Of a stretch of DNA of 64,000 nt, positions 232-4,192 are shown in pieces. The notes below the pieces were generated by a model. The model did not search any database. It was given only the letters and a program-made list of their open reading frames with translations, and was not told where the DNA came from. Both the position numbers and the translations under genes were made by a program. Within the stretch, counting starts at the first letter, position 1, and each line of letters begins with the position of its first letter. The stretch is from Stakelama sediminis (GTDB lineage: Bacteria; Pseudomonadota; Alphaproteobacteria; Sphingomonadales; Sphingomonadaceae), in assembly GCF_014199335.1 (NCBI RefSeq), contig NZ_JACIJI010000003.1, positions 186,001-250,000 on the forward strand, in the 5' to 3' direction.

Positions 232-867
232 TTATGCCGCGTTCGGAGGGGTGAGGCGATAGCCCTTGCCGGGAACGGTGTGCAGCATCGGTGCAGCAAA
301 GCTGCGGTCCAGCCGTGCACGCAACCGCGACACATGCACCTGCACCACATTGGTACCGGGATCGAAGTCCAGCCGCCATATGTTTTTCAGCAGTTCGGCG
401 CGGCTGACCGTTCGCCCCGCATGCTCCGCCAGATAGAGCAACAGCCGGTATTCGCGCGGAAGCAGGTCGAGCGACTTGCCGTCGCGCCGAACGCAAGCGT
501 TCAGCCGGTCGATTTCGAGCGGCCCGATCCGCAGGCGATGTGCCTCCCCCCGGCGCAGCATCGCTGTCACCCGCGCGACAATTTCCAGCGGCTGTGTATC
601 GGCAAGGACGGCGTCCTCCGCGCCGGCATCCAGCGCTTCGGCGATTGCGGCAGAATCGCAATTGCGCGACACCAGCATCACGGGACCATGCCAGCCCTGC
701 GCCCGCACGCGTTCCAGATGACGGTTCACCGGCTCCTTTCCCGCCCAGTCCAGCAAGGCGGCCCGGATATCCCCGGACCGCTGATGCCACGGCGTGACGC
801 GCACCCCGCGCGCAGCGAGCGCGTGCGTCAGAGCATCTCCCTCAATATCGCTCGCCACCCCGATCAT
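232..867 (-). CDS. OmpR/PhoB-type regulator with atypical receiver domain
   Basis: 211 residues. The C-terminal half (about 112-207) is a clear OmpR-type winged helix, ending in the usual VPGKGYRL wing. The N-terminal half aligns as a receiver (about 1-105) and keeps an aspartate at the expected phosphorylation place (LLDWAG, D40). The acidic pair near the N-terminus is incomplete, and the conserved lysine before the last helix is replaced by Ala-Asp-Thr (89-91). No histidine kinase lies beside it. It follows the paired cupin-like genes by 24 nt and is probably their operon partner, so phosphorylation-independent control of the peptide cluster is a reasonable inference. Confidence 0.85.
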   Translation of the reverse strand: MIGVASDIEGDALTHALAARGVRVTPWHQRSGDIRAALLDWAGKEPVNRHLERVRAQGWHGPVMLVSRNCDSAAIAEALDAGAEDAVLADTQPLEIVARVTAMLRRGEAHRLRIGPLEIDRLNACVRRDGKSLDLLPREYRLLLYLAEHAGRTVSRAELLKNIWRLDFDPGTNVVQVHVSRLRARLDRSFAAPMLHTVPGKGYRLTPPNAA

Positions 868-891: not shown

Positions 892-1824
892 TCACGCCGC
901 GCCAGCCGAACCGCCTCCATTTCGGAGCTTGTCGTGCAGCATTTCCAGATCCCGGCATGCGTTCTGCGCCACCAGCGCATCGGGATCGGCGGTCGCGCGG
1001 TCCAGCCACCGACCGGCGGCTTCCCCGTCCGCTTCCGCCGCAACGAGCGCACGCACTGCGGTCAGCCGCATCCGCGCGCTGGCATGGGAAAAGGCAAAGC
1101 GTTCAGCAAGATCGCGTCCATTGCCGTCCATTTGCGCGGCGATGGTCAGCAATACTTCGGACGCCGTGGTGGCCAATCCCGCCTCGATCCGGTTGCCGGC
1201 AATGTCGAAGCGATACTGATCGATCCAGGGCTGTTCGGGATCCTGCCCCAGAATATTGAGCGACACCGAAAACGCATCGGGCGGCAACTGGACATGCACG
1301 TCGCGGCGCATGCGATAGAGCATCAGCCGCCCCTCCTCCAGCCGCGAGCGTTCGATATAGCGCAGCCCCGCGGGCGATCCCGGCACCCCCGTCACTTGCT
1401 GCGCATCATATTCGAAATAGTCGCTCCAATAGCCCGGCCCCAGATAGCCGACGGTCAGGAACGGGAAATTATGATCGTGGGGGAGGTCGTAGAAAAAGGT
1501 TCGCGGCCCGCTCGCCCGAAAAACGGCATCGCCGCGCGCAGGCCAGAAATTCGCGCGCACCAGAAAACGTCCGTCCGGCGGGTGCAGGATCAATACCTGC
1601 GGGCCGTATCCACGTGCGCGTGCCGCATCGTCGCGCCGCTGTTTGAGTGCATCAATCGCCGCATCGGCCAGAAAGCTTCGGTTGCGACCCAGTCGGGCGA
1701 GCGACGGCCCCAGTGCTGCAAATGCGTCTTCGTCGCGCACGTCGATCCGGCTGGCGGCAAGCATGTCGACCAGTTCCGCCGGTTCGATCGCAGCCTGATC
1801 GCCCGGATCGATCAGGCGGGGCAT
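892..1824 (-). CDS. Unknown protein, cupin-like core plus C-terminal helical region (pair member B)
   Basis: 310 residues, not recognised by name. The start is placed at the ATG that overlaps the end of the upstream gene by 13 nt; a longer frame upstream is Cys/Gly-rich and unlikely. The middle part resembles a metal-binding cupin barrel: a PHDHNF segment (two histidines spaced by one) is followed by FLTVGYLGPGYW, and later VHVQLPPDAFSVSLN resembles the second cupin motif. The last 80 residues are Ala/Arg-rich helices like a HEAT-type repeat. The layout and the C-terminal helices resemble the preceding gene product, suggesting paralogues that act together. No signal peptide. Function unknown. 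Confidence 0.72.
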   Translation of the reverse strand: MPRLIDPGDQAAIEPAELVDMLAASRIDVRDEDAFAALGPSLARLGRNRSFLADAAIDALKQRRDDAARARGYGPQVLILHPPDGRFLVRANFWPARGDAVFRASGPRTFFYDLPHDHNFPFLTVGYLGPGYWSDYFEYDAQQVTGVPGSPAGLRYIERSRLEEGRLMLYRMRRDVHVQLPPDAFSVSLNILGQDPEQPWIDQYRFDIAGNRIEAGLATTASEVLLTIAAQMDGNGRDLAERFAFSHASARMRLTAVRALVAAEADGEAAGRWLDRATADPDALVAQNACRDLEMLHDKLRNGGGSAGAA

Positions 1825-2753
1825 GTCTGTGCCTCCTCCATGCGGCGTCGCTCCACCACGGCCAGCATGTGCGCGGCAGCCTTGCGAACCTCCGCATGGG
1901 CATCCGCCGCTGCCATTTCCCGCAACCGCGATTGTGCCGACAACGCATCGAGCGCAAGCCATTCGCGCATCGCTTCCCAGCGCAGAAAATGATGGCGGTG
2001 CCGGGTCGCTGCCTCAAACTGCGCGGCGGCATCGCTGCGCCCCGACACCCGCAGCAAGGTCAGCAGCATCGACCGGCGCGCGGCATCCGGATCGGCAATT
2101 TCGGCGGATAGCATCTGCCCGTCGCTGCACCGATATTGGCGGCGTATTCCATCGCCTTCCCCGCGGAACCGTATCTGCACCGCCACTATATCGCACCGGG
2201 CATCGACAAGGCGATGCACCTGATACCGGCCATCGCACAGAACGACGTCACCATCGCTGATCGTGATATCCGCAAGACGGCGCAGCCTGCTCGTATCCGA
2301 GGTCAGTTCCCAGCGCTGCAACCGCGCCGTTCCCGCCCGATGATAGGCGGTCAGCACCCTTTCGCCGGGCAGCACAACGGCATCGGTCGCGGCGCGAAGG
2401 TTCAGTTCCGACGCTGACCACAGTGCAACGCTCAGCCGCGCCCGACCGCTGTCCCATAGCGCCAGTGTCGTACCGGTCGCATCCCTGCGCATCTGTACCG
2501 GCAGGTCGGCAAAAGCATCGACCTGCAATGCGCTGACCAGCGGCGAAAGCAGGTCAGGCGGCCATGCCCTGTCCGTCAGCATCGCGCGCGCTGCATTCAG
2601 TCCCGCATCATCCTCGCCAAGCTGCTCCAGCCGCGCGCACATTTCCTTGAAAGCCCGCGAACCGTACCATTGCCGAGCCACCGCCTCCCGCCGTTCATGC
2701 GCGGCCAGTACGGCGTGCCGGAATGCGCTGTCCGCCGGTTGCGGCATCTTCAC
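1812..2753 (-). CDS. Unknown protein, cupin-like core plus C-terminal helical region (pair member A)
   Basis: 313 residues from a GTG that directly follows the stop of the 50-residue peptide gene; an ATG two codons on is an alternative. No ribosome site is visible, so translation is probably coupled to the peptide. The N-terminal 60 residues are helical. Residues about 110-215 are beta-rich, with LPGERVLTAYHRAG and DGRYQVHRLVDA resembling cupin motifs, and a CRD-like YRCSD turn follows. The C-terminal 80 residues (HRHHFLRWEAMREWLALD onward) are helical and echo the C-terminus of the next gene. No known family was recognised. Tight coupling argues for a complex with the 310-residue protein. 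Confidence 0.72.
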   Translation of the reverse strand: MKMPQPADSAFRHAVLAAHERREAVARQWYGSRAFKEMCARLEQLGEDDAGLNAARAMLTDRAWPPDLLSPLVSALQVDAFADLPVQMRRDATGTTLALWDSGRARLSVALWSASELNLRAATDAVVLPGERVLTAYHRAGTARLQRWELTSDTSRLRRLADITISDGDVVLCDGRYQVHRLVDARCDIVAVQIRFRGEGDGIRRQYRCSDGQMLSAEIADPDAARRSMLLTLLRVSGRSDAAAQFEAATRHRHHFLRWEAMREWLALDALSAQSRLREMAAADAHAEVRKAAAHMLAVVERRRMEEAQTCPA

Positions 2754-2906
2754 TCAGATGGCGGTAGGCAACATCGACTGGGCAATCGAAACGATCAGTT
2801 CATACAGCGGATCGGAATCCCCCTGTGCGGTGGCAAGCGTCCCCGGCATGGCCAGCGGTGTGTCGAGATCGACGATATCGGCATGCTCCAGCGCAAGGCG
2901 TTCCAT
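2754..2906 (-). CDS. 50-residue peptide, candidate RiPP-like precursor
   Basis: The frame begins MERLALEHADIVDLDTPL and ends SIAQSMLPTAI, then TGA. It has a near-perfect AGGAGG six bases before the ATG, stronger than most sites in the window; a second ATG two codons upstream abuts that site too closely. The peptide is acidic in its first half, has no Cys, no signal peptide and no membrane segment. It ends one base before the GTG of the cupin-like gene. Size, strong translation signal and coupling to two enzyme-like proteins fit a modified-peptide precursor with a leader of about 30 residues; this is inference. It could instead be a small regulatory or complex subunit. Confidence 0.68.
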   Translation of the reverse strand: MERLALEHADIVDLDTPLAMPGTLATAQGDSDPLYELIVSIAQSMLPTAI

Positions 2907-2965
2907 CTTCATCCTCCTGATCCGATTGATGCATGCACGCTATCGACGCACCGGACCGTGGCGTA

Positions 2966-3922: not shown

Positions 3923-4192
3923 CTAGGCCGTAAACCCATAAACGGCACCGTCGAGGCGTCCAAATGGCGAACAGATCGGGCCGAACGACGCGCGGCAAAG
4001 GCTCTTTGCCTTTGCAAGCGGCGTTCGGTTCTAGATGGAAGCCATTTGGGCGTCCCTGCGGGATTTGGCCAAAATGGCCCGGTGCAGCGTCGAAAAGTCT
4101 GGAAATATTGACATATTCCTGCGCCTTTCCTCCTTGCACCACGCCATTTTGACTCAAACCTCGATGCTGCCGTTTATGGGTTTACGGCCTAG
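3923..4192. mobile_element. MITE-like non-autonomous element, 25-bp terminal inverted repeats
   Basis: The ends 3923-3947 and 4168-4192 are a perfect 25-bp inverted repeat beginning CTAGGCCGTAAACCC, and similarity continues for about 9 more bases with two mismatches. The outermost CTAG is probably a 4-bp target duplication, as made by IS5-group transposases. The interior has no credible coding frame but contains further internal palindromes (a CCAAATGGC / GCCATTTGG pair and a TTTGCC-type hairpin), giving strong secondary structure. It is less GC-rich near the right end. It looks like a deletion derivative mobilised by an IS5-family transposase elsewhere. Confidence 0.72.

Follow-up and report, generated by a model that had tools for sequence, protein, structure and literature searches.

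RRE (PqqD-like) domains are common but not universal in RiPP systems, and bacteriocins with double-glycine leaders and C39 exporters form a known class. A Ser-His-Tyr outer-sphere triad is a feature of the known thiol dioxygenases (CDO/MDO). The closest published precedent that we found for the locus described here is PbsQ, a hydroxylase of cupin fold that modifies a RiPP precursor as one of several tailoring enzymes in its pathway (PMC12257519). The same source gives PbsCD as an MNIO/DUF692 iron enzyme with an RRE partner (PMC12257519).

We analysed a window of 64,000 nucleotides from Stakelama sediminis (contig NZ_JACIJI010000003.1, positions 186,001 to 250,000) and describe a locus that may represent a candidate RiPP family, in which a ribosomal peptide would be modified by a pair of proteins, one (B) being the oxidising catalyst and the other (A) the presenter. 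We give this reading a probability of roughly 0.6. The genes lie on the minus strand of the window between 232 and 2906 and are transcribed in the order peptide, protein A, protein B and regulator R:

2913 to 2918, minus strand: AGGAGG ribosome-binding site, 6 nt before the peptide ATG, read from the sequence
2754 to 2906, minus strand: precursor-like peptide of 50 residues, with relatives adjoining A gene calls and dN/dS 0.23
1812 to 2753, minus strand: protein A, 313 residues, a predicted cupin of thiol-dioxygenase type without conserved His, plus HEAT-like helices (model and profiles)
892 to 1824, minus strand: protein B, 310 residues, a predicted thiol-dioxygenase-type cupin with H116, H118 and H177, plus HEAT-like helices (model and alignment)
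232 to 867, minus strand: regulator R, 211 residues, OmpR/PhoB-type winged helix with a degenerate receiver-like N-terminus (Pfam match)

As with PbsQ, the locus would combine a cupin-fold oxygenase with a ribosomal peptide, a likeness drawn by fold, but its only candidate for modifying the peptide is the cupin pair. Like MNIO/DUF692 pathways, it unites a small precursor, a metalloprotein (a predicted one here) and a non-catalytic partner in one cluster; unlike them, the metalloprotein would be a cupin and not a TIM barrel, and the partner appears to be a dead enzyme copy instead of a recognised RRE. No Pfam or NCBIfam match to an RRE or a protease was found among the four proteins, and the peptide, A and B of the window matched no Pfam or NCBIfam model above cut-off. 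Promoter and terminator scans found none.

The peptide is read from the ATG at 2904-2906, the second of its frame, which gives 50 residues; the first ATG (52 residues) would abut the AGGAGG and is the less likely start. A starts with a GTG at 2753, immediately after the peptide stop, and overlaps B by 13 nt, an overlap that is identical in 57 of the 80 neighbouring A-B pairs from the named relatives. The motif PHDHNF belongs to B, and LTAYHRAG and YQVHRLVDA to A. The sizes, gene order, overlaps and motifs are those given in the original prediction, and high-confidence models agree with its description of both proteins as a beta-rich core followed by helices.

The short frame is a gene under purifying selection. 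A relative of the peptide (E ≤ 0.1) lies directly upstream of 108 of the 112 A gene calls obtained from whole-genome searches and one named scan (98 distinct proteins, with a few split or cut genes and some genomes present twice), whereas the same profile had no match upstream of 583 control genes from the same loci. Because of this difference and a dN/dS of 0.23 (57 overlapping, non-independent pairs of equal length and 65-98% identity), we regard the frame as real; it is conserved and co-occurs with the pair across relatives, in support of the original prediction. The profile was built from 77 of the upstream peptides (seeds), the distinct peptides numbering 91. When linked groups were left out one at a time, 45 of 71 main-group members were recovered at E < 0.01, as were three of the four small groups in full, the fourth being recovered only at 0.02. 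Four A calls had no peptide match: L129 is the second half of a split A, L134 an A at a contig end, L066 a weak divergent A beside which a short hydrophobic frame is visible by eye, and L131 simply gave no match. Of the 80 named loci, each found via B, 76 had a scored peptide, and in L082 and L130 one was recognised by eye. A short frame with a hydrophobic end also adjoins the pair in seven distant relatives (L169, L170, L171, L182, L183, L184 and L187; by eye, unscored), and no convincing peptide was seen by eye alongside a distant pair on a Vibrio plasmid.

The best-conserved part of the peptide is a central motif, LxTxV[AG]xxG, whose L, T and G are present in 76, 71 and 76 of the 77 seeds, respectively. 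In the window it reads LDTPLAMPG and is followed by a hydrophobic C-terminal stretch. Across relatives this C-terminal part preserves hydrophobicity, not sequence. Over the 91 distinct peptides, the median GRAVY of the best 15 residues is 1.93 and the median net charge is -5, that is, the peptides are acidic; Cys is present in 25 and absent from 66. The dN/dS values by half were 0.22 (N-terminal) and 0.26 (C-terminal), so the C-terminal half is not the better conserved of the two. The proposed action on the C-terminus SIAQSMLPTAI is unsupported on this ground, and the near-invariant L, T and G sit near the middle. As a candidate for the modified residue, F/Y/C at one position was set aside and kept as a lead only, the column being a gap or another residue in some groups.

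The stop of the peptide and the start of A overlap or are at most 15 nt apart in 65 of the 108 cases, as would be expected if the short frame were only an upstream leader whose translation is coupled to that of A and B, themselves then metabolic thiol dioxygenases. Such a role is very improbable, given the selection at the amino-acid level (dN/dS 0.23), the motif common to divergent peptides, the two or three tandem peptides present in some divergent loci and a B protein without the Ser-His-Tyr triad.

In the window's genus (Sphingomonas in the broad sense), a single site either has or lacks peptide, A, B and R together, as a block of about 2.7 kb. Relatives of B were found in 95 of 295 genomes of the genus, in 5 of 385 sampled from the class and in 15 of 398 sampled from the phylum, the samples overlapping and including the window's genome. 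Both flanking genes are present in 129 genomes, as 35 near pairs with B and 86 without it; the flanks are far apart or on different contigs in two genomes with B and six without. With B, the flanks lie 2.9-3.3 kb apart in 30 of the 35 near pairs. Without B, none lies at that distance and 61 of the 86 are separated by 503-749 bp, the other near pairs falling at 1.07-1.33 kb (seven), 2.1-2.5 kb (17) and 7.8 kb (one). Searches by tblastn with R, A, B and the peptide had no match in the 14 of these empty sites that were examined. In seven empty sites (L202-L208) the flanks enclose an additional 0.5-0.9 kb or so of DNA that matches no cassette gene.

Genes for two 4HBT-superfamily thioesterases flank the operon in 64 of 88 loci, and one for an enoyl-CoA hydratase in 54. 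Since these genes persist around empty sites, we take them as a landmark, or address, and not as functional partners; a link to fatty acids or CoA (lipidation), which they had at first suggested, was dropped on the same ground, the flanks persisting close together without the cassette. An AMP-binding acyl-CoA synthetase (L127:11802-13361; also L209-L212) adjoins the enoyl-CoA hydratase in about 10 cassette loci. It is also present in four of the 14 empty sites, those of 2.1-2.25 kb, and therefore belongs to the flanks.

The named scan kept 80 of 300 relatives, 79 of which bear Sphingomonadales names, the remaining one being titled Bacillus sp. 2B10. Relatives of the cassette occur in other proteobacterial families. 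In viral contigs there were 20 pattern matches, with no relative confirmed. Elsewhere in the window, at 3923-4192, lies an element with 34-nt terminal inverted repeats that are 94% complementary. It belongs to a MITE-like repeat family: its arm has 28 matches in the genome with at most two mismatches (15 forward, 13 reverse; control 0), many of them in pairs about 244 nt apart.

B is likely a three-His mononuclear metal cupin and the catalyst of the pair, judging from its model and alignment. AlphaFold was run with alignments of 46 sequences for B and 49 for A, and the model of B has a mean pLDDT of 93.7. Thiol dioxygenases (cysteine dioxygenase, CDO, and 3-mercaptopropionate dioxygenase, MDO; PDB 4tlf, 3uss and 8vni), its closest solved folds among those listed, top both the Foldseek and the VIA-align lists, the match covering the cupin part. 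The six best VIA rows have Z 13.9-13.5 and rmsd 3.3-4.1 over 158-171 residues at 10-23% identity. With residues 8-219 of the predicted model, the 29 best rows are all CDO/MDO-type entries (Z 13.9-12.7). Searching the solved structures with the B and A sequences gave no match, or helical-repeat or chance-like matches only. B has the HxH...H site in common with these enzymes: in the alignment, H116, H118 and H177 are found in 111 of 113 distinct B sequences, the exceptions being one with HHY and one (L184) that is a stray A-like frame scoring on the B profile. Residues R90, W94, Y112, D175, Q179, N190, Q203 and D207 are near-invariant. The metal would probably be Fe(II). The HHY sequence is a distant B (L187:9746-10633), with Tyr in place of the third metal-site His, and is perhaps inactive or has a different site.

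A profile alignment of B with four CDO_I-matching proteins, although weak (E 0.0018, probability 14.6%), sets HDH opposite HDH and the third His opposite a His. In this alignment, SVSLNIL of B faces SVSIHVY, which places S-N-L where the Ser-His-Tyr triad sits; N190 is found in 111 of 113 B sequences and position 192 is Leu, Met, Ile or Val in 112 of 113. The Pfam family CDO_I (PF05995) is absent among the families matched by 21 members (E ≤ 1) and has no match in the window's own genome. Because of the S-N-L replacement and the lack of a PF05995 match, we do not file B as a thiol dioxygenase. It also differs from CDO/MDO by its C-terminal HEAT-like domain and by the presumed inactive paralogue and the peptide gene that adjoin it. 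HEAT_2 is matched by the C-terminal helices of A and B, with scores under the cut-off in some members and over it in the Alteromonas A.

Protein A looks like a dead copy of the enzyme fold, that is, a pseudo-enzyme beside the enzyme B. Its model (mean pLDDT 95.0) has thiol dioxygenases at or near the top of the structure matches listed (best Z 12.1, covering the cupin part), although, among those listed, other cupins such as 1lr5 (Z 11.4) come within 1 Z unit of the best. The alignment of relatives contains no invariant His, and a sequence-profile comparison of A with CDO_I-type proteins gave no match. The profiles of A and B align with each other across their second halves (E 4.5e-6). The original prediction of paired oxidative enzymes is thus kept for B, a predicted metal-site cupin, but not for A, leaving what looks like one enzyme and one pseudo-enzyme. 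In Sphingosinithalassobacter portus (L016 and L082, one contig), a single frame of 598 residues reads through A and B but leaves out the HEAT part of A, which lies in a different frame; this may be a natural fusion or a frameshift.

Co-divergence was analysed in 42 non-redundant loci of the 47 with all five genes. The distances between peptides follow those of A after removal of B, thioesterase and hydratase (partial r 0.44, p 0.001), and weakly those of B after removal of A (partial r 0.17, p 0.05). Since some correlation of the peptide with either flanking gene persists too (partial r 0.29 and 0.41), the result is only suggestive of A reading or presenting the peptide.

R matches Trans_reg_C (PF00486, E 3.3e-23), and its Response_reg match covers only profile positions 61-110 and is below cut-off. 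The acidic pair and the phospho-Asp of receivers are not conserved, as seen by eye in 28 shown rows of a 41-row alignment (the window and 40 of the 52 B-adjacent R proteins, several of which start late in gene calls). R is present in 62 of 88 loci and adjoins B in 52 relatives. This association, together with the absence of R from all 14 empty sites, would also suit a sensing cassette, in which the peptide stays unmodified and A and B, by binding it or a small ligand, govern how active R is, in an autoregulatory circuit. A receiver-like domain without a visible phospho-acceptor may respond to some other input. In addition, A has no metal site, loci of the window's type lack an exporter in the gene tables, and the window's genome has no C39 peptidase match. 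We nevertheless find such a circuit unlikely, since the conserved metal-site and pocket residues of B point to catalysis and since L061, L063 and other divergent loci combine peptides and A-B pairs with exporter genes but give no R match.

Exporters are found beside some divergent relatives. An ABC exporter gene of one cluster occurs in seven of 88 loci (L061 and L126 being from the same genome). L061 has ABC, HlyD-like and MacB-like genes, L137 an outer-membrane efflux protein, a type I ABC protein and HlyD, and L186 a C39 peptidase ABC protein and HlyD adjoining a divergent A-B. These exporters suggest that the peptide may be secreted, as a bacteriocin-like molecule or a signal. In some divergent peptides EVGG precedes the hydrophobic tail, an arrangement that, with the C39 ABC protein and HlyD of L186, resembles the double-glycine bacteriocins; by contrast, the window's peptide has no GG, no exporter adjoins it and its genome has no C39 match. 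The layout of a conserved central motif followed by a variable hydrophobic tail is accompanied by GG sites and one C39 exporter in divergent relatives only. No exporter appears in the gene tables of the common Sphingomonas-type loci, including the window. Five MacB_PCD matches elsewhere in the window's genome belong to a family that 13 of 14 control genomes also have. In its richest version, seen in L061/L126, L119, L138 and L142, the cassette has a second A-B pair, two or three additional peptides and exporter genes; L061 further encodes an ECF sigma factor and a protein with a weak match to MarR.

Two relatives are on plasmids, from Alteromonas and Vibrio. The Alteromonas stellipolaris plasmid encodes HlyD-/MacB-like proteins, A, B, an ABC ATPase with an ABC-2 permease and, as seen by eye, two candidate small peptides. 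The distant A-B-like pair of the Vibrio plasmid (L190:8201-9609) adjoins genes for restriction-modification, a transposase and a recombinase. The patchy occurrence of the cassette at its site, these two plasmid-borne relatives and a hydrophobic C-terminal half would fit a toxin-antitoxin-like pair, with the peptide acting on the membrane and A-B neutralising it by binding. This is quite improbable: the peptides are negatively charged, neutralising needs no conserved metal site, and conservation is best in the central motif and not in the hydrophobic part.

The original prediction of a peptide with an oxidative pair remains our best reading on the co-occurrence, the conserved peptide frame and the predicted metal site of B, the oxidative and peptide-modifying action of the pair being presumed. 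Under this RiPP reading, the four genes would be a self-contained cassette that makes and modifies a ribosomal peptide. LxTxV[AG]xxG would serve as a recognition (leader-like) segment, and A, possibly as a heterodimer with B, would bind and present the peptide. B, probably with Fe(II), would use O2 to oxidise at least one residue in the downstream, mostly hydrophobic part; R would control the operon, and in some divergent relatives the product may be exported by C39/HlyD, type I or MacAB-like systems. A narrower assignment is put forward tentatively, with slightly more doubt than confidence: a RiPP class in which a three-His cupin of CDO fold that has lost the triad forms a heterodimer with its own dead paralogue, the latter reading the precursor. 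Because most precursors (66 of 91) have no Cys, the cupin would then oxidise a non-thiol residue.

Among the open-access papers listed on cupins or thiol dioxygenases with RiPPs, on cupins with bacteriocins and HEAT repeats and on Sphingomonadales RiPPs and bacteriocins, none has a title or abstract opening that describes this system. Mining by known enzyme families would probably miss the cassette, because no Pfam or NCBIfam model matched peptide, A or B above cut-off. If the RiPP reading is true, about one-third of the genomes of the window's genus carry the B gene of an unannotated peptide-modifying system. It would be a compact system of two proteins, an enzyme and its dead copy, which perhaps share out the tasks of catalysis and of reading the substrate. 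Non-thiol oxidation, if true, would be a new reaction for the CDO fold, and thus possibly new chemistry on a familiar iron fold.
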